From: Chloroflexota bacterium
GTDB taxonomy: Bacteria > Chloroflexota > Anaerolineae > J036 > Brachytrichaceae
Assembly (NCBI GenBank): GCA_030550095.1
Contig: JAUQQA010000010.1
Span: 1 to 64,000 of the forward strand
DNA: 64,000 bases
Direction: 5' to 3'
The number at the start of each line of letters is the position of its first letter. Positions within the stretch are counted from its first letter, which is position 1. Under the pieces are notes generated by a model that saw only the letters and a program-made list of their open reading frames with translations, was not told the DNA's origin and searched no databases. Both the position numbers and the translations under genes were made by a program. Positions 7,334 through 22,953 of this stretch are shown here, in pieces.

Positions 7334-9397
7334 TCAGCTTGCAGCTACATGGGCTTGGGCGCCGACCATCACACGCTGCACAGCGCGCAAGAGTTGCCCG
7401 CTTTCGTCATCGCCTGAGATAGTCAATTGGCTCGAGGCGAGGTAAAGGCGTTCGCTACAGCGAAACGCAAGTCCGCCCACCACGCGCGCGAGCATCTCAC
7501 GGCTGGCGTGCAGCTCGTCGGCGTCTGTCCAGGGGGTGCCTTGCCAACGGCGCGAGAGCACATACGGGTGCGTGAGCGGCTGGTAGAGGCGTTCGTGCCA
7601 GGCGGTGCTGTTCACGTCCAACCAAAACTGCACGCGCGCGCGGAAGTCGTTGGTGAGGAAGGCGTAAGCTGGCGCAAACAGCACGGCGTTTGGGTCGGGG
7701 CGCGGATCGATCTGCCACGCAATGCGCTCAGGTGCATACTGTGCCGCAAGCACGCCTTGCGTGAGCACGCGAGTGTACTCACGCCCCGCCTCTTCGTCAG
7801 TGAGCAGCCCGGCTTCGACAAGCGCTTCGCGGAAGAGGCGCGCGTTGCGGATAAGCTGATCGCAGACCAATGCGCTGCTGCGATCCGCCGCCAGCCCAAA
7901 GCCGCTTTGCGAGAGCACCTCGGTGAACAGGTGTTGCCAGAAGACGTCCAACGGGCCGCGCGGTGTTTCGCGCCAGTGCAACAACCATTGACGGAGCTGC
8001 TCGTAGCGTTCGCGATGCACCATGCCCACCCGTAGCCAAAGCTTCTGGTCCTCAATGGTGGGCAAGCGGGCGACATCGGCGCGTTGGAGCGCCTCGGCGA
8101 GGAGATGGGCGCGCACAAGGTCGAGATCAGCGAGGCTTATGGCGAGCGCGCGCGCTAGCTCAGCGCTGCCAGGCACCTGCTGCCATGCAGGGTGTGCAAG
8201 GCGAGCCCACGTGAGGAACGCGCGCACCACGGGATGGTCGTGTAAAGGGCGCGAGGGGCGCAACGCGTGCACGTGGATCCCCGCCGGGCGCAGGCGCTCT
8301 TCCAGCTCAAAGCGCAACACGTCCTCGGCGAAAGGCGCAAGCACGGCGATCGCGCTGGGCGGCGTGCCGTTGGCGACCTCGTCGCGGATCGCTTGGGCAA
8401 CGGTGTTCACCATCTGCACCCAATACTTGCCGCCCTCGAGCACAATCACGCTGGGGTGAGCTTGCGGCGAGGGGCGCGCGTAGGGATCGCGCACCTGCTG
8501 CATCAGCGCGACGGCGAACCGCGCTGGGCTATCGGGCGCATTGGGTGCAAGGCGCGCGTCTGGCCACTCGCGCAGGGTGCACTGCGCGCGCAGCCTGCGT
8601 GCAGAGTCCACATCGGCGCCGAGGAAGAGCCGATAGCCGCCTGGGTCGTCCTCGACGAGATACGCAGCGTCGCACGTTTGCAACAGCAGCCTAAGGAAGT
8701 CGTGCAGCACGGGGGGGCCTTCCTCGATGTTGTCCGCGAGCACGTAGCGGAAACGCGCTGCGATGAATTGCTGGTAAGCGGGGGTGCTCAGCAGGTGCTG
8801 AGCAAACACGGAGAGCGTGAGCGAGAAATCCAGCAGCGTGTGCGCCAAGCAGTAGTTGCGAAACGCCTGCGCGAGGGCTTGCACGCGCTGGAACAACGGC
8901 GTGCGCAGCTCTTTGCCGCTCCACGCCATGCTCAGGCGTTGCGCCACTTCGTCAAGCGCAAACCCCGCGACGGCTGCTTTGTTGAGCGCGTCGAGGATCT
9001 GGCTGAGCACGCGCGCGCGCGGCAGGCGCAGTGTGTCGAACTCCGCAAGGTGCGGCTGCGCCAATCGGCTGAGCACATACTGCGCCACCTCGACGTTGAT
9101 GAACGTCGGCTCGCGCCACGGCTGAGGAAAGCCCGCCGACTCAGCAATGAGTGGGAAGAACAGCGCCACGTGTCGGCGCGCGAGCGCGTACACCGTGCCG
9201 ATGAAAGGTTGACCGCGCGTCGGCCCACGCAGCGACGCCAATGCCTGCTCGAAGCGCCAAGCAGCCGAAGCCTGCGGCACCAGCACGGCGATACGATCGG
9301 GGCGCACGCCCGACGCGATCAACTCTGTCAATCGGCGCGCGAGCGCGGTGGACTTCCCTACACCTGGCGCGCCAACCCAGTACTCTCGGACACCCAT
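7334..9397 (-). CDS. UvrD/AddB-like superfamily 1 helicase-related ATPase
   Basis: 687 residues. The N-terminus has a Walker A (GAPGVGKSTALARRL) and a UvrD-like continuation (GVRPDRIAVLVPQ, then TVYALARRH in place of TFHSLA). The Walker B region reads VLADNIEE where UvrD has VDEFQD, so the catalytic Glu is replaced by Asn. A motif VI-like segment near the C-terminus (RCSERLYLASS) resembles the Arg motif of UvrD. No iron-sulphur cysteine set or nuclease domain is visible. It may be an AddB-like or otherwise non-motor helicase protein; strand unwinding cannot be assumed. It heads the operon with the two S41 proteases. Confidence 0.75.
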   Translation of the reverse strand: MGVREYWVGAPGVGKSTALARRLTELIASGVRPDRIAVLVPQASAAWRFEQALASLRGPTRGQPFIGTVYALARRHVALFFPLIAESAGFPQPWREPTFINVEVAQYVLSRLAQPHLAEFDTLRLPRARVLSQILDALNKAAVAGFALDEVAQRLSMAWSGKELRTPLFQRVQALAQAFRNYCLAHTLLDFSLTLSVFAQHLLSTPAYQQFIAARFRYVLADNIEEGPPVLHDFLRLLLQTCDAAYLVEDDPGGYRLFLGADVDSARRLRAQCTLREWPDARLAPNAPDSPARFAVALMQQVRDPYARPSPQAHPSVIVLEGGKYWVQMVNTVAQAIRDEVANGTPPSAIAVLAPFAEDVLRFELEERLRPAGIHVHALRPSRPLHDHPVVRAFLTWARLAHPAWQQVPGSAELARALAISLADLDLVRAHLLAEALQRADVARLPTIEDQKLWLRVGMVHRERYEQLRQWLLHWRETPRGPLDVFWQHLFTEVLSQSGFGLAADRSSALVCDQLIRNARLFREALVEAGLLTDEEAGREYTRVLTQGVLAAQYAPERIAWQIDPRPDPNAVLFAPAYAFLTNDFRARVQFWLDVNSTAWHERLYQPLTHPYVLSRRWQGTPWTDADELHASREMLARVVGGLAFRCSERLYLASSQLTISGDDESGQLLRAVQRVMVGAQAHVAAS

Positions 9398-9995: not shown

Positions 9996-10032
9996 AAAAA
10001 CAGAGGCGCGCCTTAGGTTTGTCACGCCTCTG
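9996..10032 (-). terminator. Intrinsic terminator of the mrp operon
   Basis: On the minus strand an 8-bp stem (CAGAGGCG with CGCCTCTG, 10001-10008 and 10025-10032) with a 16-base loop is followed by five U residues. It lies 60 bases after the stop of the last mnhG. Confidence 0.85.
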
Positions 10033-10094
10033 TTACACGCGTGAGTATAGCGAAGTCTGGACACACGTCAAGCGAGCCTAATACGCACATAAGC

Positions 10095-10433
10095 TTACTT
10101 TGGGGTGGGCAACCGCTGCTGGGCGAGATCGTCGCGCAAGGCGCGCTTCATGGGAATGCCGAGACGGTAGGCAGCGGAGCCGATCGCGTGTGAGGTGGCA
10201 GGACCCGTGAGCACCAGCAACGCAATGAGCACTAGCCCTTTGCTCCACGCGAACGGCACGGTGAGCACCGCGGCGACGGTGAGCAGCACGACGCCGAAGG
10301 TCGCTACCTTGCCCACGGCGTGCATGCGAGCATAGACATCGGGCAGCCGCACCAATCCTAGAATCCCAATCACTGAGAACGCCGTGCCTACAAGCACAGC
10401 CAGCGTCGCCAGAAGGTAAGCGAGCGTCTCCAT
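10095..10433 (-). CDS. mnhG: Mrp-type Na+/H+ antiporter subunit G, set 1
   Basis: 112 residues with three membrane helices. Family signature: GTAFSVIGILGLVRLPDVYARMHAVGK near 16-42 and TGPATSHAIGSAAYRLG near 79-96. MrpG is one of the small hydrophobic subunits of the multi-gene Mrp complex that exchanges cytoplasmic Na+ (or K+) for external protons. It is the last gene of the long operon, 11 bases after mnhF, with a terminator behind it. The paralogue at 16108-16443 is clearly related. Confidence 0.95.
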   Translation of the reverse strand: METLAYLLATLAVLVGTAFSVIGILGLVRLPDVYARMHAVGKVATFGVVLLTVAAVLTVPFAWSKGLVLIALLVLTGPATSHAIGSAAYRLGIPMKRALRDDLAQQRLPTPK

Positions 10434-10444
10434 GAGCGGGTTCC

Positions 10445-10720
10445 TCAGAACATCTGCCGATTAGCGAGATACCGCGCAAGCGCTACCGTGCTGATGAACG
10501 ACAGCGCGGCGAAGCCAAGCGCGAGGTCCATGTAGAGCGCATCATCATTGAACAAAGCGAGCAGCACGAAGATAGCCAAGCCGAGCGTGGTGATCACGTC
10601 TGCCGCCACGAGCCGATCGAGCACCGTCTCGCCGCGCCAGACGCGCACAACAGCGACAGCGATCAGCAGGATGTGCAGCCCGAGCGAAAGCACAACAGCG
10701 CTGGTGAAAAGCGATTGCAT
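10445..10720 (-). CDS. mnhF: Mrp-type Na+/H+ antiporter subunit F, set 1
   Basis: 91 residues with three predicted helices. The conserved MrpF features are an R-V-W-R-G-E-T-V-L-D-R-L-V-A-A-D segment in the first loop (about 26-41) and a C-terminal LSFISTVALARYL that is nearly identical in the second copy. It is three bases from mnhE and 11 from mnhG, so co-translation is likely. It forms part of the membrane arm of the Mrp complex. Confidence 0.95.
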   Translation of the reverse strand: MQSLFTSAVVLSLGLHILLIAVAVVRVWRGETVLDRLVAADVITTLGLAIFVLLALFNDDALYMDLALGFAALSFISTVALARYLANRQMF

Positions 10721-10723
10721 AGC

Positions 10724-11221
10724 TCACTCAAAGATCGCCTTGAGCATCGCTTGGCGCTTGCGCTGCGCCTCCTCAGCGCCAGCGGCGCTGGCTTCAACGT
10801 CGAGGCAGTGCGTGTAGAGCGTGCCGTCGTCGCCGATCTCCACCACTTGCTCGCCAGGCGTGACGGTGATGGCGTGGGCGTTGAGCGCGCGCCCCAGCTC
10901 CGTGCGCATCTCGCTCTTGATGGCGAGGATGCCCGGCTTGATCGGCAGCTTCGGGTCGAGCACAATGCGCGCGACGCGAATGCCGTTGCGGATGATGTCC
11001 ACCGAGAGCCACACTACATACACCGCGAGGTTGAGCAGCGCGCTGGGTAAGCGCCGCAAGGACATCGGCTCGCTGGTCGGGCGCACAATGAACGTGATTG
11101 CGAGGCTGATCAGCAGCCCGATGACCCAATTGGCAGGCTCGAGATTGGCGGTGACCGCAAGGTAGAGCACAAGGCACAACGCGATCAGGCGGAGATAGGC
11201 AAGCAGATTCGGTTGGTTCAT
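10724..11221 (-). CDS. mnhE: Mrp-type Na+/H+ antiporter subunit E, set 1 (only copy)
   Basis: 165 residues from the ATG at 11221, which overlaps the mnhD stop by four bases; a longer frame reaches 11320 inside mnhD and is not credible. N-terminal helices (about 8-45) precede the MrpE signature: LAVYVVWLSVDIIRNGIRVA, then P-I-K-P-G-I-L and a cytoplasmic ferredoxin-like tail with TLYTHCLDVE. This is the only mnhE in the window; set 2 has none, with only three bases between its mnhD and mnhF. If two complexes form, they may share this subunit. Confidence 0.93.
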   Translation of the reverse strand: MNQPNLLAYLRLIALCLVLYLAVTANLEPANWVIGLLISLAITFIVRPTSEPMSLRRLPSALLNLAVYVVWLSVDIIRNGIRVARIVLDPKLPIKPGILAIKSEMRTELGRALNAHAITVTPGEQVVEIGDDGTLYTHCLDVEASAAGAEEAQRKRQAMLKAIFE

Positions 11222-12756
11222 CGCATCCTCCCTTCGGGGTTCACGCTGGCGACGTAACGCTCTGGTTGGGCGAGCCACGCGCTTGTGTCTTGCGCGACGT
11301 GCAACAGCGGTTGTGCCCAAATGCCGAGCACGAGGCAGAGCGCGACAAGCGACGCCGGCGCAAGCAGGCTATCTCCGTATGGCTTCACTTTTTCCTCGGG
11401 CGTGCGCGGCTCGAATGGCTCCCACCAGATGCGCATCAGCGCGCGCATCGTGTAGGTCACTGTCAGAATCCCAGCGACGCCGATGAGCAGCAGCGGTAGC
11501 CAATAGCCGAGTGCGGCTTCGGGCGTGGTTGCCTGCAAGGCGGCGATGCCGCTCTGGAAGAGGGCGAGCTTGCTCACAAAGCCGTTCATCGGTGGCAAGC
11601 CCGCAAGCGCCATGCTACCCAAGAAGAACACCACGCCAGCAAGCGGGGCATACTTGCCTGTGCCGCGCACCACCTGGAACGCTGCGCTCTTCACTGGGGC
11701 GCGGCTGGCGAGGTAACCGCTGAGCATGAGCATTGCGCTCTTCACCAGCGCGTGGTTGAACGCGAACACCAACGCAGCTGCGAGCGCGGGGGGCGTGCCC
11801 CAACCCAAGCCGACGTAGATGAAGCCGATCTGCGCCAGCGTGGAGTACGCAAACATGCGCTTGACGTTATGCGTGCCTGCTGCGCCCAGCCCACCGAAGA
11901 TGACCCCCACCACGCCGATCACCAACAGCGCCACGCGCAGCCAGTCCGCTTGCGGTGCCAACAACGTCGTGAGGCGCATAAAGCCATACACACCCAGCTT
12001 CACCACAACCGAGGAGAGCATCGCCGAGACCGGCGTTGGCGATGCGGTGTGAAAGTCGGGTTGCCAAAAGTGGAACGGCACAGCCGCGCTCTTCACCGCA
12101 AACGTGACAGCGAGGAATACCAATGCCGCAGGCAGCAGGGGTTGGTTTGGGTCTGCAGCGATGCGCCGCGCGAGATCTGCCATGTTCAGCGTGCCATAGC
12201 TCGCGTAGAGGCTGCCGATGCCGAAAAGCAGCGTGAACGAGGCAACTGTGCTGATCAGGAAATACTTGTAGGCGGCTTCCGCGCCGTAGCGGTCGTCGCT
12301 AATGGCGGTGAGCACCACGCCGGCGATCACCACCAGCTCGATCATCACGAAGAGGTTGAAGATGTCGCCCGTGAGGAACCCGCCGCTCAGCCCTGCCAGC
12401 AGCGCGAGGAAGAGCGGATAAAACGTGTTGTGCTGCACGGCTTTGTCTTTAGCGCCCAGCGCGTAGAGAAAGCCAAACACAAACACTAGCTGCGCCATGA
12501 AAGCGAAGAAGGCGCTGAGCAGGTCAACGACGAAGCTGATGCCGAACGGTGCAGCCCACGCGCCCATTTGAAACACGATCGGCTGCCCTTCGCGCCACAC
12601 TACCCAAAGCAGCCCGCTTGTCGCCGCGAACGAGAGCAACACGCTGCCAAACGCCCACCACGCTTGTGCACGCGGGCGTCGGCGCAGCAGCACAGCAACA
12701 GGAATGGCGCTGAACGGGATCAGGAATGGCAAGAGAGCGAGCAAAGAGGTGCGCAT
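11218..12756 (-). CDS. mnhD: Mrp-type Na+/H+ antiporter subunit D, set 1
   Basis: 512 residues with about 14 helices, homologous to complex I NuoM/NuoN proton-channel subunits. Channel residues are visible: Glu in NLFVMIELVV (helix 5) and Lys in FAVKSAAVPFHFWQPDFHTA (helix 7), followed by a second Lys in SSVVVKLGVYGF. MrpD is one of the two large antiporter-like subunits needed for cation/proton exchange. It lies eight bases after mnhC and overlaps mnhE by four. Confidence 0.96.
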   Translation of the reverse strand: MRTSLLALLPFLIPFSAIPVAVLLRRRPRAQAWWAFGSVLLSFAATSGLLWVVWREGQPIVFQMGAWAAPFGISFVVDLLSAFFAFMAQLVFVFGFLYALGAKDKAVQHNTFYPLFLALLAGLSGGFLTGDIFNLFVMIELVVIAGVVLTAISDDRYGAEAAYKYFLISTVASFTLLFGIGSLYASYGTLNMADLARRIAADPNQPLLPAALVFLAVTFAVKSAAVPFHFWQPDFHTASPTPVSAMLSSVVVKLGVYGFMRLTTLLAPQADWLRVALLVIGVVGVIFGGLGAAGTHNVKRMFAYSTLAQIGFIYVGLGWGTPPALAAALVFAFNHALVKSAMLMLSGYLASRAPVKSAAFQVVRGTGKYAPLAGVVFFLGSMALAGLPPMNGFVSKLALFQSGIAALQATTPEAALGYWLPLLLIGVAGILTVTYTMRALMRIWWEPFEPRTPEEKVKPYGDSLLAPASLVALCLVLGIWAQPLLHVAQDTSAWLAQPERYVASVNPEGRMR

Positions 12757-12764
12757 GGTGTTCC

Positions 12765-13097
12765 TCAGCCGCGCAATCCTTTCACCTCATCGTTATCACT
12801 CGTGCGGTAGCGCGTGGAGACCACGTAGAGCAGTGCGAGCACAAAAGCAAAGCCACCCATGCTAATCACAATCGCTGTGAGGATCAGCGCTTGAGGCAAA
12901 GCATCGCTGCGTTGCCCCACCGCCTTGGCGTAGGCTTCGGTCACGCCCTCATAGGCGCCCACCGAGAGCAAGAACAGGTTGACCGCGTTGGAGATGGTGA
13001 CCAGCCCGATCGCGGTGCGGATCACGTTGCGCCGCAGGAGCTGATACAGCCCGATGCCGAAGAGCGCGCCAATCGCAAGTGCACGCAGAAGATCCAT
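12765..13097 (-). CDS. mnhC: Mrp-type Na+/H+ antiporter subunit C, set 1
   Basis: 110 residues with three helices, a NuoK homologue. Signature segments are RTAIGLVTISNAVNLFLLS with the intramembrane Asn and DALPQALILTAIVISMGGFA. The C-terminus ends DNDEVKGLRG, matching DSDEVKGLRH in the second copy. It sits six bases behind the mnhA/B fusion. Confidence 0.96.
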   Translation of the reverse strand: MDLLRALAIGALFGIGLYQLLRRNVIRTAIGLVTISNAVNLFLLSVGAYEGVTEAYAKAVGQRSDALPQALILTAIVISMGGFAFVLALLYVVSTRYRTSDNDEVKGLRG

Positions 13098-13103
13098 CGT
13101 CGC

Positions 13104-16073
13104 TCACTCCAAATCGCGTTCGGGATGTCCAAGCGTGTCGAGGATGAAAACCGAGGCGCCGAGCACGGCAAGGCAGATCGCCAACTCGAACAACAGGGAA
13201 GTGGTGAGATCGAACCCACGTGGCAGCGGCAAACCGAGCGCCTCGCCAAGGTTGAAGTGCGAAAAAAACGTGCCGCCGAGGAAGATCGGCACCGTTGCGC
13301 CAAAGAGCACCGTGAGCAATCCCGCGCCGATCAACAACCCGGGGCGCACAATGCGCAAACGAAGGCGCGTTTGGTCATACCCGAAGATCACATACCAGAA
13401 GCCCACCGCCAAGCTCAGCGTCACACCTGCGGTGAAGCCGTCGCCAGGCTGGCTGTGACCGTACACCATCTGCACGAACGCCAAGACGGCGCTGAACGGC
13501 AGCAGAAGGTAGGCAAGCGCGCGCAGGAACGGCGAGGTGCGCACGCCGTCAATGCCGCGAATGCTGGCGGGCAAGCGCACTTCAGGCGTTGCCGCCTCCG
13601 CCTCGTATTCTGGCGACTCGTGCGCTGGGCGCAATGCTGCTGCGGTGGTCTCGCGCTTCTTCATCGCTAGGCGGATCAGGCTGTACACGCCGATGCCTGC
13701 CATGCTGAACACTGTGATCTCGATCAGCGTATCGAACCCGCGGAAATCCACCACGATCGCCCCCACGATATCCGCAGCGCCGGTGAGTGGCTTGGCATTG
13801 GCTTCGTAGAAGGGCGTGACGTGCGAGATGCGCGGGCGCGAGCTAAACGCATAGAGGCTGAGCAAGGTGACGGTAAGCCCGCCCAGCACAGCGATAATGC
13901 CGTTGCGCGCCGTGTCGCGCCAAGCGCGTCCGTTGAGCGCCTCGGCGGCGCGGCGTTGGACGCGTGGCAGCCGCGAAAGCGCGAGCACTAAGATCAGCGT
14001 AGAGAGCAGGTCCACGATCACCTGCACCAGCGCCACGTCAGGCGAAGGCTCCAGCGCGATCAGCAACGCCACTGCTAAGCCCGACGCCATCAGCGCGAGG
14101 ATAGCGAGCAGGTCGCGCCGAATGATCACCGCAACCAGCGCAGCGGCGACTGCGAGGAGCAGACTAAACGCGCGCAGGATCATCAGTGGCGGCGGCAACA
14201 CGCCGACGAGGTGCTCCCAAGAGAGGCTCGCTGACGAGGCAGCGAGGATGCGTGGCGGATCGCCGAGCGCCGCGAAGAGCGCGAACAACGTGAGCAGGAT
14301 CACCGCGAGGTAGGTGCGCACGTAGCCGCTCTGCGTCTGCGTCGCCAACGACGCGGCGCGGTCGAGCGTGGCAAGCACGCCCTCGTAAGCCTGGTTCATG
14401 GAGAGACGCGGCAAGGGCAACGCGCGGTAGGGCGCGCGTGCTGCGAACAAGCCGACACCACCCAACATCGCCGCGCCGCTGAGCATGAGGGGGACGCTCA
14501 CCCCATGGAATAGCTCCAACGAGACCTTCACCTTTGCCCCGTAAGCCGCTGAGGCAGCTTTGGCGAGCAGCTCGACGAGGGCATGCGGCTGGATCACCGT
14601 GATCACAAGCGAGAGCAAGGCAAGCAAGCCCGGCATGAGCACCATACCGATCGGCGCTTCATGCGGCGCATGTGCGGGTGCGTGCGTGTGGTGCTCGGCA
14701 GTCTCGTGTCCTTGAGCGCTCGGTACAAATCCTGCCCCCTTCGGCGTGAGAAACGTGTCGAGCACGAGCGTGGACGCTTGCGCGAACATCAACGCGCCGG
14801 TGAGCGTAGTGAGCGCAGGTTGAATAACGCGCATCACGGCGGGCAAGACAGGCTCCAACTCAGCCGCGAGCAGCGTCTCTTTCGCCAAAAAGCCGAATAG
14901 GGGCGGCACACCTGCCATCGAAAGCCCCGCGAGCAACGCCACAGCGAATGTGAGCGGCATGATGCGCGCCAGTTGACCAAGCTGGCGCAGGTCGCGCGTG
15001 CCCGCGCTATGGTCCACGATGCCCGCCACCATGAACATCGCACCTTTGTAAAGCGCGTGGGCGGTGATGCCGACCGTCAGCGCTTTGAACGCTGTAGGCG
15101 CTTCCTCGCCGAGCAGCATGGTGAGCGCGCCGAGCTGGCTCACGGTGGAATAAGCCAACACTGCCTTCCAGTCGTGTTGCCGCAACCCCACCAAGGCCCC
15201 GGTGATCATGGTGATCGCGCCGATGCTTGCCAGTGTCCAAAACCATAGCGGCGTGTTGCCCAAAGCAGGATGCAGGCGCGCCAGCAAGTACACCCCTGCT
15301 TTCACCATGGTCGCCGCGTGGAGATAAGTGCTCGCTGGCGTTGGCGCGCTCATCGCTGAAGGCAGCCAGAAGTGAAACGGGAATTGTGCGCTCTTAGTGA
15401 ACGCGCCAAACGCGATCAACCCAAACATCACCGGATACCAAGGATGTGCGCGCAAGCGTTCACCTTGCTGGGTGATCACGTTGAGATCCGTGCTGCCTGC
15501 GATCGCAGCAGCGAAGAGCAGCCCTGCCAGCAGCGCAATGCCCCCGCTGCCTGTGATGAACAAAGCTTTGAATGCGCCCGCGCGCGCCTCCGCGTCTTTG
15601 GTCTTGTAGGCGATCAGCAAGAACGATGTAAGGCTTGTGCCCTCCCAGAACACAAAGAGCGTGATCACGTCGCCTGCCAACACCACGCCCATCATCGCGG
15701 TCATGAACAGCAGCAGGTAAAGCATGAAGCGGCTGCCGTCCTGCCCTTGGAAGTAGTAGCCGGCATACACCGTCACCAACGCGCCGATGCCGCTCACGAG
15801 CAGCGCGAAGAGCAAGCCTAGCGCGTCGAGCTGGAACGCAAGCCGCACGCCAAGCGTGGGCAACCAATCGAGTTGCCATTGCAGCGTCTCTCCTTCGAGC
15901 ACTGTCGGCGCTTGCGCCAGCAGCGCGGCGAGCGCGATCGCTGGTGCTAAGGCGAGCATCCAACCGAGCAACGGCATGGACAGACGATGGGCAGCGCGCC
16001 CATTCACCGCTAGCCCAAGAAGGGCGCCAACCGCACATGCGAGAATGGGGGTGGGGAGCGCGAGCAAGGGCAT
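13104..16073 (-). CDS. mnhA: Mrp-type Na+/H+ antiporter subunit A with fused B domain, set 1
   Basis: 989 residues from the ATG at 16073; a longer frame to 16193 runs into mnhG of set 2. Residues about 1-520 form the NuoL-like antiporter with FWEGTSLTSFLL (helix 5 Glu) and FTKSAQFPFHFWLPSAMS (helix 7 Lys). Residues about 520-800 carry the MrpA-specific C-terminal region. About 840-989 is an MrpB domain, recognisable by YGHSQPGDGFTAGV and LFELAICLAVLGASVFILDT. The A-B fusion explains the lack of a free mnhB. It starts 34 bases after the previous mnhG, the largest gap inside the double operon. Confidence 0.96.
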   Translation of the reverse strand: MPLLALPTPILACAVGALLGLAVNGRAAHRLSMPLLGWMLALAPAIALAALLAQAPTVLEGETLQWQLDWLPTLGVRLAFQLDALGLLFALLVSGIGALVTVYAGYYFQGQDGSRFMLYLLLFMTAMMGVVLAGDVITLFVFWEGTSLTSFLLIAYKTKDAEARAGAFKALFITGSGGIALLAGLLFAAAIAGSTDLNVITQQGERLRAHPWYPVMFGLIAFGAFTKSAQFPFHFWLPSAMSAPTPASTYLHAATMVKAGVYLLARLHPALGNTPLWFWTLASIGAITMITGALVGLRQHDWKAVLAYSTVSQLGALTMLLGEEAPTAFKALTVGITAHALYKGAMFMVAGIVDHSAGTRDLRQLGQLARIMPLTFAVALLAGLSMAGVPPLFGFLAKETLLAAELEPVLPAVMRVIQPALTTLTGALMFAQASTLVLDTFLTPKGAGFVPSAQGHETAEHHTHAPAHAPHEAPIGMVLMPGLLALLSLVITVIQPHALVELLAKAASAAYGAKVKVSLELFHGVSVPLMLSGAAMLGGVGLFAARAPYRALPLPRLSMNQAYEGVLATLDRAASLATQTQSGYVRTYLAVILLTLFALFAALGDPPRILAASSASLSWEHLVGVLPPPLMILRAFSLLLAVAAALVAVIIRRDLLAILALMASGLAVALLIALEPSPDVALVQVIVDLLSTLILVLALSRLPRVQRRAAEALNGRAWRDTARNGIIAVLGGLTVTLLSLYAFSSRPRISHVTPFYEANAKPLTGAADIVGAIVVDFRGFDTLIEITVFSMAGIGVYSLIRLAMKKRETTAAALRPAHESPEYEAEAATPEVRLPASIRGIDGVRTSPFLRALAYLLLPFSAVLAFVQMVYGHSQPGDGFTAGVTLSLAVGFWYVIFGYDQTRLRLRIVRPGLLIGAGLLTVLFGATVPIFLGGTFFSHFNLGEALGLPLPRGFDLTTSLLFELAICLAVLGASVFILDTLGHPERDLE

Positions 16074-16107
16074 GGTGCGCAACGATAGCACGAATGGAGG
16101 ATGTGAA

Positions 16108-16443
16108 TTACTGGTCGCGTTGCATGATGGGTCGCAAGTCGTCACGCATGGCGCGCTGCAACGGCACGCCAAGGCGATAAGCCGCTGAAGCAATCGCGTG
16201 CGAGACTACAGGCCCAGCAATGATCAAAAGGACGATGAGCAGCAACCCTTTCCCGAAGGCGTTCGGCACGAGCGCGATCACAGCGATCGCCAACAGCGCA
16301 GCGCCGAACACGCTCACTTTTCCGGCGGCGTGCAGCTTGCTATACACGTCTGGCAGGCGCAACATGCCGATCACGCCGATCAGCGAGAAGGCGCTGCCGA
16401 TGAGAATGGCACTAATAGCCACAAGCTCTGTAATCATGCGCAT
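16108..16443 (-). CDS. mnhG: Mrp-type Na+/H+ antiporter subunit G, set 2
   Basis: 111 residues with three helices. GSAFSLIGVIGMLRLPDVYSKLHAAGK and GPVVSHAIASAAYRLG correspond closely to the set 1 protein. The ATG at 16443 has a GGAGAG Shine-Dalgarno; an in-frame ATG two codons later is possible. It is the last gene of the upstream antiporter set, with set 1 mnhA following after 34 bases and no terminator between. Confidence 0.95.
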   Translation of the reverse strand: MRMITELVAISAILIGSAFSLIGVIGMLRLPDVYSKLHAAGKVSVFGAALLAIAVIALVPNAFGKGLLLIVLLIIAGPVVSHAIASAAYRLGVPLQRAMRDDLRPIMQRDQ

Positions 16444-16455
16444 CTCTCCGTAAAC

Positions 16456-16731
16456 TCAGAACATGCGTTGCTCGGCAAGGTAACGCGCCAGCGCAAGCGT
16501 GCTGATGAAGCTCAACGCTGCAAGCGCAAGCGCGACGTCCACATAGAGGCTTTGCCGCAGCAGCAACGCTAACGCTAACACTACGCACAACAGCAGCACG
16601 CTCACCAACTCCAAGCTAAGCAGCCGCTCCGTGGCGTGCTTGGCGCGCATCAACCGCCAAGCAGCAAGAGCAAGCAGCGCTGCGTGCAGCACCAGCGCAC
16701 CGATGATCACCACATCTAGTGCTGAGGTCAT
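16456..16731 (-). CDS. mnhF: Mrp-type Na+/H+ antiporter subunit F, set 2
   Basis: 91 residues, the same length as the set 1 copy. The C-terminal ALSFISTLALARYLAEQRMF matches it closely, while the N-terminal half has diverged (A-W-R-L-M-R-A-K-H-A-T-E-R-L-L replaces the usual G-E-T-V-L-D-R-L segment). It follows mnhD directly with three bases between; the mnhE expected at this place is absent. Confidence 0.93.
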   Translation of the reverse strand: MTSALDVVIIGALVLHAALLALAAWRLMRAKHATERLLSLELVSVLLLCVVLALALLLRQSLYVDVALALAALSFISTLALARYLAEQRMF

Positions 16732-16734
16732 TGC

Positions 16735-18237
16735 TCACCCTCCAAGCACGGCGCGCACGTATTGATCTGGCGTGCGCATCCAGTCCACCACGTCGTTAGA
16801 GAGCTGGAGCAGCGGCTCAGGCCAAATGCCGAGCGCGACGCTCAGCGCGATCAAGATCGCCGGCGCCACCAGGCGATCGCCGTAGGGTTTGGGCTTCACA
16901 CCCTCGGGCATGGGCGACCACCAAATGCGTTGGAACGCGCGCACAACGTACACCAGTGTCACGATGCCCGCTAGCCCAATCGCTGCAAGCGGTGCGTAGT
17001 CGCCAATGGCGGCGCCGCTCTGGAAGATCAGCAGCTTGCTGATGAAGCCGTTGAGCGGTGGCACTCCCGCCAAGCCCATGCCGCCGAGCAGGAAGAGCAC
17101 CCCCGCTGCTGGTGTCACTTTGCCCAAGCCGGTGATCGCCTCGAAGGCAGCGGTCTTCACGGGGGCGCGGCTAGCGACGCTGCCGGCGAGCATGAGCATC
17201 GCTGCTTTGAGCAAGCTGTGGTTGAAGGCATACACGAGCGCTGCGATCAGCGCAAGCGGTGTGCCCCAGCCGATGGCGACGAGGATGAAGCCAAGCTGCC
17301 CGAGCGTGGAGTAGGCCAACATGCGCTTGGCGTCATACGTGCCCGCAGCGCCCAAGCCGCCAAACCAAGCGCCGATCACGCCAGCGAGGATGAGCAGCGG
17401 GCGCAGCAGCTCGGCTTGCGCAGGAAAGAGCAGCGTCGTCATGCGCAAGAAGCCGTAGATGCCGAGCTTGACCACCACCGAGGAGAGCACAGCGTGCACA
17501 GGTGTGGGTGCTGCGGTGTGGAAGTCGGGCTGCCAAAAGTGGAACGGCATCACCGCCCCTTTCACCATGAAGAACACCGCCATCAGCGCCATGGCTGGCA
17601 GCACCAACGGTGGTGAAGGATCGGCGGCGATGCGTTGCGCGAGATCGGCGAGGTTCAGCGTGCCGTAGCTCACATACAGCCCACCTACGGCAAGCAACAG
17701 CGCAAACGAAGCCAATAGGCTGATGTAGAAATACTTGTAAGCTGCCTCTGTGCCGAAGCGGTCGTCGGAGATCGCGGTGAGCGCGGCGCCGGCAAACACG
17801 AGTAGCTCGGCGAAGACGAACAGGTTGAACACATCGCCTGTCATCATCGCGCCGCTCAGTCCCGTCGCCAGCATTAAGAAGAGGGGGAAGAACATGGGGT
17901 ACTGCACGCATTGATCACGCGCACCCAGCGCATACAAGAAACCCATGCTCAGCACGAGTTGGGACATGAGCACCATCATCGCCGAGAGAAGGTCGGCGAC
18001 GAAGGTGATGCCAAACGGCGCTGCCCAGCCGCCAAGTTGCACCACCAGCGGTTTGCCGCTTTGCCATACTTGCTGCAACACAATCGCGCTGGTGATGAAC
18101 GCGCTGAGCATCGCGCCGAACGACCATGCCGCTTGAACGCGAGGGTTGCGCCGCAGCAGCACCGCCACTGGCACCGCGGCAAGCGGGATCAACACAGGGA
18201 GCAAAGCCAAGGTGTTCCGCTCCATGACATCTTTCAA
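16735..18237 (-). CDS. mnhD: Mrp-type Na+/H+ antiporter subunit D, set 2
   Basis: 500 residues with about 14 helices. Antiporter residues are present: Glu in NLFVFAELLVFAGAAL and Lys in FMVKGAVMPFHFWQPDFHTA, then SSVVVKLGIYGF. The start at 18237 overlaps the mnhC stop by four bases; an alternative ATG lies at 18225. Sequence and order match the set 1 mnhD, indicating a whole-operon duplication followed by divergence. Confidence 0.95.
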   Translation of the reverse strand: MKDVMERNTLALLPVLIPLAAVPVAVLLRRNPRVQAAWSFGAMLSAFITSAIVLQQVWQSGKPLVVQLGGWAAPFGITFVADLLSAMMVLMSQLVLSMGFLYALGARDQCVQYPMFFPLFLMLATGLSGAMMTGDVFNLFVFAELLVFAGAALTAISDDRFGTEAAYKYFYISLLASFALLLAVGGLYVSYGTLNLADLAQRIAADPSPPLVLPAMALMAVFFMVKGAVMPFHFWQPDFHTAAPTPVHAVLSSVVVKLGIYGFLRMTTLLFPAQAELLRPLLILAGVIGAWFGGLGAAGTYDAKRMLAYSTLGQLGFILVAIGWGTPLALIAALVYAFNHSLLKAAMLMLAGSVASRAPVKTAAFEAITGLGKVTPAAGVLFLLGGMGLAGVPPLNGFISKLLIFQSGAAIGDYAPLAAIGLAGIVTLVYVVRAFQRIWWSPMPEGVKPKPYGDRLVAPAILIALSVALGIWPEPLLQLSNDVVDWMRTPDQYVRAVLGG

Positions 18238-18569
18238 TGGCGAAGTCCTTTCACCTCGTCGCTGTCGCTCGTCTTGTAACGCACGGAGAGCACGTACAAC
18301 ATGGCGAGTATCAACGCGAAGCCGCCCATGCTGATCACGATCGCCGTCAGCACAAGCGCTTGCGGCAACGCATCGCTGCGCTGCCCAGCGAGGTTGGCGT
18401 AGGCGGCGACCTCGCCGCGGTATGCGCCCGCGGCGAGCAGAAACAAGTTGATCGCGTTGGAGAGGATCGCCAGCCCAATCGCAGAGCGGATCAAGTTGCG
18501 GCGCAGCATTTGGAACACGCCCACGCCGAACAACGCGCTGATTGCTAAAGCAGTGAGGAGGTCCATCAT
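18234..18569 (-). CDS. mnhC: Mrp-type Na+/H+ antiporter subunit C, set 2
   Basis: 111 residues from the ATG at 18569, which overlaps the mnhA/B stop by four bases. A longer open frame reaching 18740 lies antisense-free inside mnhA and has no support. NuoK-like signature: RSAIGLAILSNAINLFLLA and DALPQALVLTAIVISMGGFA. Coupled at both ends by ATGA overlaps. Confidence 0.95.
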   Translation of the reverse strand: MMDLLTALAISALFGVGVFQMLRRNLIRSAIGLAILSNAINLFLLAAGAYRGEVAAYANLAGQRSDALPQALVLTAIVISMGGFALILAMLYVLSVRYKTSDSDEVKGLRH

Positions 18570-21529
18570 CGCTCTTTGTTCCCTTGTTGCTGTGCTTGAG
18601 GCTCTTCGGGCAACGTCACCGCGCCGCTGGCGCGCAGTTGCGCAATCGCGGCAAGTTGCGCTTCTGTTTCTGTGTCGGCGTCGCGTGGGCGCCCGAGGGT
18701 ATCCAGCATGAGCACGGCGCTGCCGAGCACAGTGAGGCAAATCGCCAACTCATAGAGCGTCGCGGTGCTCAAATACACCCCTTTGGGCAGGAAAGCGCTG
18801 ATCCCCAGCCAGCGCCCGAAGTCCACGGGCGAAAGGAACGCGCCGTTCACCCATGCGGCGATCATGCCGTTGATCACCGCTATCCCAAGCCCCACGCCGA
18901 TCAGCACGCTGGCTTTCAGCCAGGTGAGACGGCGCTTGGTCTCAGCGTAGCCATACACCACATACCAGCTCGCCACCCCTAGGGCGATGATCACGCCTGC
19001 GGTGAAGCCATCGCCAGGTTGATCGTGTCCGAGCAGGATGTGTGACACGCCGAGCACCATCGTCAGCGGCAACATGAAGCGCGCCAACACGCGCAGCATT
19101 GGCGAGAGACACATGTCGCCCACGCCGCATAGCCGCTGCAGGGCGTAGCGTGGTGCGGGTTCATCTTCACGGTCGCCTGCCTTGCGCGAGGCATAGCGCA
19201 GCAGCACGTAAATCGCCATGCCCGCAGCGCTGAACACGGCGATCTCAATGAGCGTGTCTAGCCCGCGGAAGTCAATGATGATCGCGCCGACGATGTCGTT
19301 TGCGCTGGTGAGCGGCTTTGCGTTTTGCTCGAAGAACGGTGTAAGTTGTGAAGTGCGCGGGCGTGTGCTGAGCGCGTTGAAGACGAGGACGAACACAACG
19401 GCGCTCGTCCCCAAGGCGAGCAGCGCATCGCGCAATAAGCCAAAGCGGCTTTGGCGGAAGGTGAACTCCGCGGCGCGGGCGCGTTGCGAGGCGGGCAGGC
19501 GCGTGAGCACCAACACAAGCACCACCGCAGTGAGCACCTCCACCACCACTTGCACCAGCGCGATGTCTGGCGCTGGTTCGAGCAACATCAAGCCGGCGAT
19601 GCTCAGCCCTGAGGCGGCTAGCGCCAAAATGGCGAACAGATCGCGTCTCAGCAGGACGCTCGCAAGCGCCGCGCCAGTGGTCAGCGCCAACAGCACTAAA
19701 CGCAGCAAGGCGCCGGCGTTGAGTGCGAGCGAGGGCAAAGCAAGCGCAGGCAATGGCAACCGCCCAACGCCCACCACCATCACAATCAGGCTAACCAACA
19801 TCACCGCGAGGTAAAGGCGCAATTGCCCATTCTGCACGCGCGTGGTCAGCCATGCTAAACCGTCTATGCCGCGTAGCACGGCGCGATAGATCGGCTCAAG
19901 CTGCCAGTTGCCAGTAGCCTGCGCAAGCTGTGGGCGAACGCGCTGACGTGTCCAGAGCAGTGTGCTGCCCGCGAGCACCGCGACGGCGCTGAGCACAAGC
20001 GGGATGTTGATCCCCGTCCACAGCGCAAGCGAGACCTTCACCTTCGCACCACTCGCGGCGCTGGCAGCGCGGGCGAGCAACGTGGCGAGCCACTCAGGTT
20101 CAGGCAGCAAGCCAATCACCAGCGAGCCAAGCGCAGGCAGTGCCGGCGCCATCCACATCGGCGTGGGCGCTTCGTGAGCATGATGTTTGCGCCGTGGAGC
20201 GCCCAAGAAGCCATCGAGCACAATCAAGCCAGCTTGCGCGAGCACCAGCGCTCCTGCGACAACCACAATCGCTGTGAAGATCGCGCTTGCTGCGGGCGGC
20301 ACACTGGGGTGGGTGATGGTTGCCAGCTGGGTTTCCTTGGCGAGGAAGCCGAACAGCGGCGGCAGGCCCGCCATGGAGAGCGCCGCTAGCCCCGCGACGG
20401 CAAATGTGAAAGGCATTGCGCGCCACAGCCCGCCAAGCTGTTGCAGATCGCGCGTGCCCGTCTCGTGGTCCACAATGCCCGTCACCAAGAAGAGCGCGCT
20501 CTTGTAGAGCGCATGCGCCGTCAGGCTCACTGTCAGCGCCTTAAATGCGATCTCCGTGTCTTGCCCGATCATTGCAATGAGCGCCCCGAGTTGGCTCACG
20601 GTGGAGTAGGCAAGCAATGCCTTAAGGTCGTTTTGCTTAAACCCGATGTAGGCGCCGACCAGCATCGTGGTGAGCCCCACCACACTGAGCAGCCAAAACC
20701 AAAGATCGGTGTAGCCCAAGGCGGGGTTGAGGCGAGCGAGCAAGTACACGCCTGCCTTGACCATCGTTGCGGAGTGCAGATATGCCGATGCAGGCGTGGG
20801 CGCGCTCATCGCGCCAGGCAACCAGAAGTGCGCGGGGAACTGGGCGCTTTTGGTAAACGCGCCGAGCGCGATCAGCCCGACGACGACGGGATAAAGCCAA
20901 TGCGCGCGGAGCTGGGTGCCTTGCGCAAGGATCGCGCCGAACTCGGCGCTGCCGCTGAGCACCATCAGCAACACCAATCCTGCAAGCAGCGCGATCCCAC
21001 CTCCGCCTGTGATGAACAAGGCGCGAAATGCAGCTTGGCGCGCGGCTTCGTCTTTGAACTTGTAGCCCACAAGCAAGAACGAGGTGAGGCTGGTGCCCTC
21101 CCAGAAGACAAACAGCGTGATCACGTCGCCCGCCAGCACTAAGCCCAGCATGGCGGTCATGAACAACGTGAGGAACACGAAGAAACGCGCCTCACTAGAC
21201 CCCTCGTGCCCGCTGAAGTAGTAGCCAGCGTAGATCGTCACCAGCGCACCAATGCCGCTCACCAACAGCCCAAAGAGCAGACTCAAGCCATCGAGCGTGA
21301 GCGTGGCGTTCAGCCCCAACGTAGGCATCCAAGCAATGCGCCAGGTGAGCGTCTCGCCCGCGAGCACTTGTGGCGAAAGCGCAAGCAGCGCGGCGAACGC
21401 CAGTGCTGGCGCCGGCGCGATCAACCAGCCCAGCGCGGGCGCAGGCAAACGACGCGCCGGCGTGAGCGCAAGCAAGATGCTGAGCAGCGCTCCAAGCGCA
21501 CATGCAAGGAGGGGGATCACAACTGTCAT
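18566..21529 (-). CDS. mnhA: Mrp-type Na+/H+ antiporter subunit A with fused B domain, set 2
   Basis: 987 residues from the ATG at 21529, one base after the stop of the cation exchanger gene; the frame continues upstream to 21595 but only inside that gene. It contains the NuoL-like core (FWEGTSLTSFLL; FTKSAQFPAHFWLPGAMS), the MrpA C-terminal region and a fused MrpB domain (GHDQPGDGFTAGV; YELAICLTVLGSAVLMLDT). After the B domain it has a polar tail of about 40 residues (RPRDADTETEAQLAAI onward) that set 1 lacks. The one-base junction with the exchanger puts both antiporters under the same leader. Confidence 0.96.
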   Translation of the reverse strand: MTVVIPLLACALGALLSILLALTPARRLPAPALGWLIAPAPALAFAALLALSPQVLAGETLTWRIAWMPTLGLNATLTLDGLSLLFGLLVSGIGALVTIYAGYYFSGHEGSSEARFFVFLTLFMTAMLGLVLAGDVITLFVFWEGTSLTSFLLVGYKFKDEAARQAAFRALFITGGGGIALLAGLVLLMVLSGSAEFGAILAQGTQLRAHWLYPVVVGLIALGAFTKSAQFPAHFWLPGAMSAPTPASAYLHSATMVKAGVYLLARLNPALGYTDLWFWLLSVVGLTTMLVGAYIGFKQNDLKALLAYSTVSQLGALIAMIGQDTEIAFKALTVSLTAHALYKSALFLVTGIVDHETGTRDLQQLGGLWRAMPFTFAVAGLAALSMAGLPPLFGFLAKETQLATITHPSVPPAASAIFTAIVVVAGALVLAQAGLIVLDGFLGAPRRKHHAHEAPTPMWMAPALPALGSLVIGLLPEPEWLATLLARAASAASGAKVKVSLALWTGINIPLVLSAVAVLAGSTLLWTRQRVRPQLAQATGNWQLEPIYRAVLRGIDGLAWLTTRVQNGQLRLYLAVMLVSLIVMVVGVGRLPLPALALPSLALNAGALLRLVLLALTTGAALASVLLRRDLFAILALAASGLSIAGLMLLEPAPDIALVQVVVEVLTAVVLVLVLTRLPASQRARAAEFTFRQSRFGLLRDALLALGTSAVVFVLVFNALSTRPRTSQLTPFFEQNAKPLTSANDIVGAIIIDFRGLDTLIEIAVFSAAGMAIYVLLRYASRKAGDREDEPAPRYALQRLCGVGDMCLSPMLRVLARFMLPLTMVLGVSHILLGHDQPGDGFTAGVIIALGVASWYVVYGYAETKRRLTWLKASVLIGVGLGIAVINGMIAAWVNGAFLSPVDFGRWLGISAFLPKGVYLSTATLYELAICLTVLGSAVLMLDTLGRPRDADTETEAQLAAIAQLRASGAVTLPEEPQAQQQGNKER

Positions 21530-21530
21530 C

Positions 21531-22643
21531 TCAGCCTGTGGAACCTCGTCCTGCGGTCGCGCGCTGCTGCAATTGCCGCAGCTCACGCACCGCAAGCAAA
21601 ACCAACGTGATTGTGGTCAGCGGAAGCGCCACAGAAAGCATAAAGGCGTTGTAGCTGGGCAAGAGCGGGTTTTGGGTTGCTTCAAAGATGAGGTAGAGCG
21701 TGTAAGCGACGTAGTAGGCGAGGAAAAGCCCGCCTTCCCATCGGGAGACGCTGTTGCCTGTGAAGAAGATCGGCAAACATGCGAACGCCACAGCGAGCAT
21801 GATGGGGAAGTCGAAGTTCAACAGGCGCGGGGTCACCTCAACCCCATTTGGCGCGACGGTCGCCGTAGCGCCGAGCACGGAGAGCAGGTTAAAGATGTTG
21901 CTGCCCACGATGTTGCCCACGGCGATGTCGCGCTCGCCGCGCAAACTCGCCACCACTGAGGTCGCTACTTCGGGGAGCGACGTGCCGCCCGCGATCAGCG
22001 TCAGCGCGATCACCACCTCGCTCACGCCCAACGCGCGCGCGATGGCGACGGCGCCGTCAATCAGCCAGCGCGAGCCCACCACGAGCATCGCCAAGCCTGC
22101 TACGACGAGCACGAGGTTCACCACGATTTGCCCCAAGCCGCGAGGACGTTCGCCGAACTCTTTGGCGTATTCCTCTTCCACCTCGCGGCTCTCGCGGCGG
22201 CTTTCGATGACGAGGAAAATGGTGTAAGCGATGATGCCACCGAAGAGCAACAAGCCCTCTAGGCGCCCCACGTTGCCGTCTAACGCGAACAGATAGGCGA
22301 TGAGCGAGATGCCGATCATCAGCGGCACGTCGAGCTGCACTAGTTGTTGCGCCACGGTGAGCGGCGCAACCAGCGCCGAAAGCCCGAGGATGAGCAACAC
22401 GTTGAAGATGTTGCTGCCCACCACGTTGCCCAACGCCACGCTGCTCAGCCCGAGCAGCGAGGATTGCACGCTCACCGCCAGCTCTGGCGCGCTCGTGCCG
22501 AACGCCACCACCGTCAGCCCGATCACCAGCGGCGAGACACCCACCGCTGCTGCTAAACGCGATGCGCCGCGCACCAGCGACTCAGCACCAACGATTGCGA
22601 GAATAAGCCCGCCGACGAAAAGCACAAGGGTCAATGCGTCCAT
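21531..22643 (-). CDS. CaCA-family cation/Na+ (or H+) exchanger, YrbG-like
   Basis: 370 residues from the ATG at 22643, preceded by a GGAAG Shine-Dalgarno ten bases away. About ten helices in two inverted halves, each with an alpha repeat: GTSAPELAVS near 45 and GGTSLPEVATS in the second half, the acidic residues that bind Ca2+ in this family. The loop between halves is charged (ESRRESREVEEEYAKEFGERP). YrbG homologues are annotated as Ca2+/Na+ exchangers. The Mn2+-type riboswitch in the leader suggests this one exports Mn2+, or Ca2+ and Mn2+, which would prevent metal toxicity. It is the first protein gene of the 12-gene unit. Confidence 0.9.
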   Translation of the reverse strand: MDALTLVLFVGGLILAIVGAESLVRGASRLAAAVGVSPLVIGLTVVAFGTSAPELAVSVQSSLLGLSSVALGNVVGSNIFNVLLILGLSALVAPLTVAQQLVQLDVPLMIGISLIAYLFALDGNVGRLEGLLLFGGIIAYTIFLVIESRRESREVEEEYAKEFGERPRGLGQIVVNLVLVVAGLAMLVVGSRWLIDGAVAIARALGVSEVVIALTLIAGGTSLPEVATSVVASLRGERDIAVGNIVGSNIFNLLSVLGATATVAPNGVEVTPRLLNFDFPIMLAVAFACLPIFFTGNSVSRWEGGLFLAYYVAYTLYLIFEATQNPLLPSYNAFMLSVALPLTTITLVLLAVRELRQLQQRATAGRGSTG

Positions 22644-22678
22644 GGTTTTGCCTTCCGCTTTTGAGTTTTGAAACAAGT

Positions 22679-22740
22679 AGGCGAGACCGACCATGCATCC
22701 CGAGCTAAAAGTGCGCTCGTCGTCATGGTTGGTCTCGCCT
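22679..22740 (-). promoter_or_regulatory. Expression-platform hairpin of the riboswitch
   Basis: A 17-bp inverted repeat with one G-U pair (22679-22695 with 22724-22740) encloses a 28-base loop that can itself form CGAGC/GCTCG. Its 5' arm on the RNA contains GGCGAGACCAACC, the 3' end of the aptamer, so hairpin and ligand-bound aptamer should exclude each other. The run after it (ACTTGTTTC) is a poor U-tract. A terminator or Rho-dependent stop relieved by metal is the likeliest mode. The start-codon Shine-Dalgarno lies outside the hairpin. Confidence 0.7.
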
Positions 22741-22845
22741 TTGCACACGGCGCGTGCACATGCCACACCGGGAGCGACGTGGCTCCGTATTGACGATGGG
22801 GCATACCCTGCGCATTGAGCAGGGCAGGCTACTCCCCAATTGGCG
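22727..22845 (-). promoter_or_regulatory. yybP-ykoY (Mn2+-sensing) riboswitch aptamer
   Basis: Reading the minus strand, the conserved blocks of the yybP-ykoY family occur in order: TTGGGGAGTAGC (22828-22837 core), CGTCAATACG followed by a GGAGC/GCTCC arm and CGG, a GTGTGGC/GTGTGC arm, and GCGAGACC, with TTGG and CCAA closing P1. They agree with the well-studied Lactococcus example (GGGGAGUAGC, CGUCAAUUCG, GCAAGACC). The family senses Mn2+ and usually turns on metal-export genes. It lies about 85 bases upstream of the cation exchanger ATG. Confidence 0.92.
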
Positions 22846-22879
22846 CGCGCGCAGCGCAACGCCAACGCATTCACTTTAG

Positions 22880-22953
22880 TGAGCCGTGCAGGATTCGAAC
22901 CTGCGACACGAGGATTAAAAGTCCCCTGCTCTACCAGGCTGAGCTAACGGCCC
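22880..22953 (-). tRNA. tRNA-Lys (anticodon UUU)
   Basis: A full cloverleaf on the minus strand: acceptor GGGCCGT/ACGGCTC, D arm with AGCTCAG...GGTAGAGC, anticodon loop CTTTTAA (anticodon TTT), T arm CAGG TTCGAATC CTG, discriminator A. No CCA is encoded. A TATGAT box lies at 22968-22973. About 35 bases separate its 3' end from the riboswitch on the same strand, with no terminator between, so tRNA and operon may share a transcript. Confidence 0.95.

Follow-up and report, generated by a model that had tools for sequence, protein, structure and literature searches.

Genes and Features of the Locus

The DNA analyzed here, referred to as the window, is the whole 64,000-nucleotide stretch at positions 1 to 64,000 of contig JAUQQA010000010.1 from a Chloroflexota bacterium (GenBank assembly GCA_030550095.1). 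It carries on the minus strand a 12.7 kb operon in which, by Pfam assignment, a CaCA cation exchanger is followed by two sets of Mrp antiporter genes, set 1 with A/B fusion, C, D, F and G, and set 2 with A/B fusion, C, D, E, F and G. The leader of the exchanger gene contains a yybP-ykoY (Mn2+) riboswitch. Computation established what the riboswitch is, its expression platform, the genes and their junctions, and the conservation of the arrangement; the coordinates of the features are listed in Table 1.

Table 1. Features of the riboswitch-exchanger-Mrp locus, in the order of transcription.
Feature	Position	Strand	Evidence or remark
tRNA-Lys (UUU)	22880..22953	(-)	RF00005 66.4 bits; ARAGORN ttt anticodon
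yybP-ykoY (Mn2+) riboswitch aptamer with flanks	22717..22853	(-)	RF00080, own covariance model R1, covariation, invariant columns
Aptamer helix P1.1	22839-22836/22732-22729
Aptamer helix P1	22829-22827/22739-22737
Aptamer helix P2	22824-22820/22810-22806
Aptamer helix P3	22804-22795/22769-22760
Aptamer helix P4	22786-22782/22775-22771
Aptamer loop L3	22794-22787		Invariant Mn2+-discriminating A at 22791
Expression platform, terminator-like hairpin	22680..22739	(-)	-36.1 kcal/mol, 20 pairs
Shine-Dalgarno-like GGAAGG of exchanger	22651..22656	(-)	Sequence; outside hairpin
CaCA cation exchanger (Na+/Ca2+ exchanger family, NCX-like, 370 aa)	21531..22643	(-)	PF01699 213.5 bits; NCX_Mj E=1e-36
mnhA/B fusion, set 1	18566..21529	(-)	Proton_antipo_M, MbhD, MbhE and MnhB domains
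mnhC, set 1	18234..18569	(-)	PF00420
mnhD, set 1	16735..18237	(-)	PF00361; start TTG 18237 or ATG 18225
mnhF, set 1	16456..16731	(-)	PF04066; few bases from mnhD stop
mnhG, set 1	16108..16443	(-)	PF03334
mnhA/B fusion, set 2	13104..16073	(-)	Probable start ATG 16073
mnhC, set 2	12765..13097	(-)
mnhD, set 2	11218..12756	(-)
mnhE, set 2	10724..11221	(-)	PF01899; the operon's only mnhE
mnhF, set 2	10445..10720	(-)
mnhG, set 2	10095..10433	(-)	Final operon gene
Intrinsic terminator past operon	9996..10034	(-)	AACAGAGGCG...CGCCTCTGTTTTT

The anatomy of the operon, on one strand with short gaps, fits a single unit. As had been predicted, the stop codon of the exchanger and the start of the first mnhA are one base apart (TGA-G-ATG), and each later junction is either a short gap or an overlap until the terminator at 10034-9996 is reached. 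Moreover, a scan for the sigma-70 consensus returned zero promoter-like sites inside the operon. The whole operon is probably co-transcribed. The original prediction that no terminator would be met until about 10.0 kb was borne out in that the first U-run terminator past the operon is the one at 10034-9996, but the leader itself possesses a terminator-like hairpin (22739-22680). At the distal end, a promoter-like TTGACG-16-TATACT lies at 10071-10044 (-), with the terminator hairpin right after it, ahead of greA. Because this promoter-like sequence precedes it, the terminator at 10034-9996 may double as a leader terminator or attenuator of greA.

The exchanger contains two Na_Ca_ex stretches (PF01699) with alpha-repeat motifs. 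The Mrp genes had been described as a complete double Mrp, which is correct for set 2 (10095-16073), where A to G are present with A and B fused, but not for set 1 (16108-21529), in which no MnhE was found with Pfam and D and F adjoin directly. MnhE was likewise not found in set 1 of those relatives that possess two sets. The two Mrp sets perhaps share one MnhE or build a mixed complex.

Identity of the Leader RNA

Every conserved block of the yybP-ykoY family claimed for the leader is present at 22839-22729 (-), namely GGGGAGUAGCC, GUCAAUACGG and GGCGAGACC. In a local search at a relaxed threshold, RF00080 matched positions 22843-22711 over the full model length with 22.7 bits (E=2e-4), and this match was the only one in the whole 2.35-Mb genome (E=2.8e-4). 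A high-scoring full-length match, as had been proposed for a check, was not obtained, since 22.7 bits compares with a gathering score of 45 bits, a curated annotation threshold and not a biological feature. With Rfam at the gathering threshold the riboswitch was missed, and the tRNA was the only report. The cut-off rather than the RNA is likely at fault, because none of 249 genomes of the class yields RF00080 above it, TerC and P-type ATPase loci among them. The sub-threshold RF00080 matches in the class display one common anatomy, most of them with a terminator that reuses the 3′ strand of the aptamer. With the current Rfam model, the Mn2+ riboswitches of the class, as sampled, stay under the cut-off, and their regulons are therefore largely invisible in routine annotation.

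A covariance model, R1, was built from an alignment of 18 relatives and scores the leader of the window, itself a training sequence, at 92.2 bits (E=1.6e-24). R1 matches were obtained in 56 of the 249 class genomes and in 85 of 400 phylum genomes, many untrained ones reaching 60-90 bits. In an alignment of 67 sequences, two-sided changes occur in 22 of 26 pairs, with 433 such changes compared with 127 after shuffling; standard pairs occupy 91.7% of pair cells compared with 24-44% when the partners were slid by 1-3 columns, and the covariation score is 0.634 compared with 0.187 in shuffles. Having been fitted to the model, this alignment is biased towards it, yet the margin is large all the same. 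Furthermore, GGGAGUAG in L1 and UCGUCA in L3, which includes GUCA, are invariant across the 18 aligned sequences. The adenosine in GUCA of L3 is the base that discriminates Mn2+ (PMC6754395).

The first genes located 3′ of R1-type RNA were identified at 55 loci, mostly of the class: 25 are P-type cation ATPases, 13 TerC, 5 Zn_peptidase_2, 4 M50 and 2 CaCA. TerC and P-type ATPases are the classic targets of Mn2+ riboswitches, and they are the normal company of yybP-ykoY RNA in this class. Zn_peptidase_2-like (PF04298) genes lie directly 3′ of Mn2+ riboswitches at L189, L193, L194, L208 and L213, and M50 protease genes at L139, L201, L226 and L229; these per-locus assignments were made by sequence likeness, the totals of 5 and 4 being those of Pfam.

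A Na+ riboswitch was considered with regard to the Na+ genes downstream and was ruled out, as no other Rfam metal family matches the leader at E<=1. Judged from its sequence, the leader is a real yybP-ykoY (Mn2+) riboswitch, the RNA of which would be expected to bind Mn2+. A chance match or some other RNA, suggested by an RF00080 score of half the gathering score, is excluded in practice by the covarying conserved structure, the invariant residues of the Mn2+ site, the classic Mn2+ genes that follow this RNA throughout the class, and the lack of any match at E<=1 to the other metal families.

Expression Platform

The hairpin at 22739-22680 starts inside the 3′ strand of the aptamer, which forms its 5′ arm (GGCGAGACCAACC), so that the expression platform competes with P1.1. 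A T-rich tail, TACTTGTTT, follows directly at 22679-22671. Hairpins on the aptamer 3′ strand were observed in all 23 riboswitch-exchanger loci examined, with energies of -18 to -39 kcal/mol and a T-rich tail in most. In Lactococcus lactis, P1.1 is stabilized by Mn2+ and termination is thereby prevented (PMC11087558). By analogy, the leader is predicted to be a Mn2+-ON switch acting through transcription termination. Translational control was set aside and termination preferred because the Shine-Dalgarno sequence is not within the hairpin. At low Mn2+, the aptamer 3′ strand would pair with downstream sequence to form a strong terminator hairpin, at which RNA polymerase would halt before the exchanger. 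At high Mn2+, and probably to a greater degree at alkaline pH, the aptamer would dock, P1.1 would be stabilized, the terminator blocked and the operon read.

Conservation of the Arrangement

A close exchanger is present in 19 of the 28 genomes of the window's family. Mrp genes follow it directly on the same strand in 18 of these 19, with gaps <180 nucleotides, G138 being without them, while the riboswitch precedes it in 15, at full strength in 14 and weakly in G256 (37.5 bits, the GGGGAGUAG block missing). In three of the 14, all of genus g5, an M50 protease gene lies between riboswitch and exchanger. G041, of the same genus as the window, has a single Mrp set (set 2), and several family genomes have a tandem pair of exchangers. 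The arrangement is recurrent across the family and not a one-off, which suggests that these bacteria couple the export of manganese to the machinery with which they handle sodium and pH.

In a second, distant family of the phylum, the riboswitch-exchanger pair is found in 8 genomes and, in addition, in a named Chloroflexaceae contig (L035) that resembles this family; Mrp genes are located further on in 7 of the 8 and in L035. The original prediction of a Mn2+-type riboswitch heading an exchanger-Mrp operon is upheld, apart from the completeness of the double Mrp, with conservation in the family and, in part, in the second one. At one locus of the second family (L252:1653-2363), two divergent Mn2+ riboswitches lie back to back, the first ahead of TerC and the second ahead of the exchanger. 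A cupredoxin-like lipoprotein gene, identified by eye, is situated on the opposite strand between exchanger and mnhA in L247, L248, L250-L253 and L035.

The best 80 named exchanger loci are mostly proteobacterial, and among them R1 matches only L035 and L033, so that the link between riboswitch and exchanger is not general for the exchanger. L033 belongs to a metagenome-assembled genome of the betaproteobacterium Sulfuritalea; here a Mn2+-riboswitch-like RNA (9116-9249, -), in which an Rfam scan found nothing, precedes TerC and is divergent from an exchanger-Mrp cluster.

Start of the Transcript

The tRNA-Lys(UUU) gene, of which one copy was found in the assembly, the other Lys tRNA gene having a ctt anticodon (ARAGORN), shares the strand of the riboswitch and ends 40 nucleotides upstream of it. 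No terminator was found between the two (22840-22879, -), and a conserved TATGAT -10-like box is visible in the alignment ahead of the tRNA. Most relatives in both families possess TTGACA-16/18-TATA about 10 nucleotides before the aptamer core, in many with 11 of 12 matches, while the best TTGACA/TATA candidate in the window has only 6 of 12. G041 has an identical placement of tRNA-Lys and retains a weak TATAAC box, for which the window has no counterpart. The operon promoter is lost in the window genome, and a start at the tRNA-Lys promoter is the simplest inference, in which case tRNA-Lys would be co-transcribed with the riboswitch. With transcription from this promoter, the riboswitch hairpin would double as the terminator of the tRNA transcript.

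Function of the Operon and Alternative Explanations

Neither the window genome nor its genus yielded TerC, MntP or GDT1 when searched, and the exchanger is for this reason the best candidate for a Mn2+ exporter. Most likely it would serve the lineage as an efflux pump for Mn2+ (or Mn2+/Ca2+), driven by inward Na+; its NCX-like character fits Na+ coupling without proving it. Mrp would expel the incoming Na+ against H+ entry, so that the Na+ gradient is kept and an alkalinized cytoplasm is acidified. It is likely that a Mn2+-ON riboswitch governs one long transcript comprising the CaCA exchanger together with one complete and one MnhE-less Mrp. Na+-coupled Mn2+ efflux, taken alone, is the best reading but a tentative one. 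The combined picture is more tentative again: a Mn2+-gated, possibly also pH-gated, module in which Na+-driven CaCA exchange replaces TerC, MntP and GDT1 in Mn2+ export and is co-transcribed with a Na+-recharging Mrp, its start rewired to the tRNA-Lys promoter and the riboswitch hairpin serving as the tRNA terminator too.

The role of Mrp may be understood differently. The switch could report Mn2+ together with an alkaline cytoplasm, with Mrp present for pH homeostasis and not for refuelling the exchanger. In E. coli, the effects of Mn2+ and alkaline pH on the mntP and alx riboswitches are additive, with Mn2+ binding 17-22 fold tighter at alkaline pH (PMC9603457), and Mrp is a pH-homeostasis antiporter (PMC5703873). 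This explanation is nevertheless somewhat unlikely, as it does not account for the exchanger as first gene, nor for the TerC and P-type ATPase genes behind the same RNA elsewhere. Alternatively, Mrp may itself be a Ca2+ (or Mn2+)/H+ antiporter that works in parallel with the exchanger under one Mn2+ sensor. Thermomicrobium roseum belongs to the same phylum as the Chloroflexaceae. In vesicles from E. coli, its Mrp exchanged Ca2+ for H+ but did not perform Na+/H+ antiport (PMC5703873), and the presence of two Mrp sets, one without MnhE, suggests divergent roles. Characterized Mrp complexes are, however, mostly Na+(K+)/H+ antiporters, and with a cation selectivity that is unreadable from sequence, direct divalent transport by Mrp appears improbable.

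Several observations weigh against a Mn2+-controlled exchanger-Mrp transcript devoted to Mn2+ efflux. One P-type cation ATPase is encoded in the window genome away from the riboswitch and could export Mn2+. The switch may leak, because the window has a short P1.1 of 4 pairs and an interrupted, weak U tract (6 T of 9). Decayed relics of the riboswitch, with the L1 block lost, lie upstream of the exchanger in G119 and G257 (L131 and L133), and no riboswitch was found ahead of the exchanger in G073 and G138, so that riboswitch control is dispensable. A small cupredoxin-like gene on the opposite strand separates exchanger and Mrp at most second-family loci; Mrp need therefore not share the transcript there, and the exchanger link alone is firm. 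Linkage of exchanger and Mrp also exists in betaproteobacteria without the riboswitch, for which reason Mrp may be an old companion of the exchanger and not part of a Mn2+ response. It might be concluded from the last two points, and from the linkage kept in G119 and G257 while the riboswitch decays, that the riboswitch serves the exchanger alone and that Mrp depends for its expression chiefly on other promoters or on read-through, the linkage being historical. Against this stand the one-base junction in the window, the family gaps, all <180 nucleotides on one strand, and a sigma-70 scan, of the consensus only, with zero promoter-like sites inside the operon, which together make such an arrangement doubtful.

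If Mn2+-dependent control of exchanger and Mrp together is true, the Mn2+ riboswitch regulon reaches beyond exporters dedicated to Mn2+ and takes in Na+ and proton homeostasis, and a CaCA exchanger is nominated as Mn2+ exporter where TerC, MntP and GDT1 are not found. The system would also allow a direct test of the purpose of Mrp, be it metal export, pH or the two together. A literature search found no paper that joins yybP-ykoY with Mrp, apart from one incidental match; the target lists of the founding Mn2+-sensing studies lay outside this search. The riboswitch class is known, and its target set here is apparently undescribed.

Comparison with Known Systems

The leader resembles RF00080 and the terminator type of Lactococcus lactis yoaB in L1 (GGGGAGUAGC), the invariant adenosine of L3 and the helical core, as well as in a 3′ strand common to aptamer and terminator hairpin and in the Mn2+-ON logic predicted here. 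It differs from RF00080 in its shorter, compact form, below the cut-off throughout the sampled class, and in its target, the exchanger and Mrp genes. The regulons of mntP, alx/TerC and P-type ATPases are controlled by the same RNA family, which in relatives usually targets TerC and P-type ATPases, whereas the first gene behind the riboswitch of the window is a CaCA exchanger. Na+ riboswitches (DUF1646 motif) likewise control genes of Na+ biology, but the leader matches no such family.

With respect to its proteins, the exchanger shares with NCX_Mj (sequence match E=1e-36) and other CaCA members two alpha repeats and the GTSAPE/GTSLPE and GN..GSN motifs, and differs by an Asn where, by motif, NCX_Mj has Asp240. 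The gene order A/B (fused), C, D, E, F, G is that of Mrp (CPA3) antiporter operons, the Ca2+/H+ Mrp of Thermomicrobium roseum among them. Unlike these, the window has tandem sets, the first without MnhE, positioned behind an exchanger and a riboswitch.

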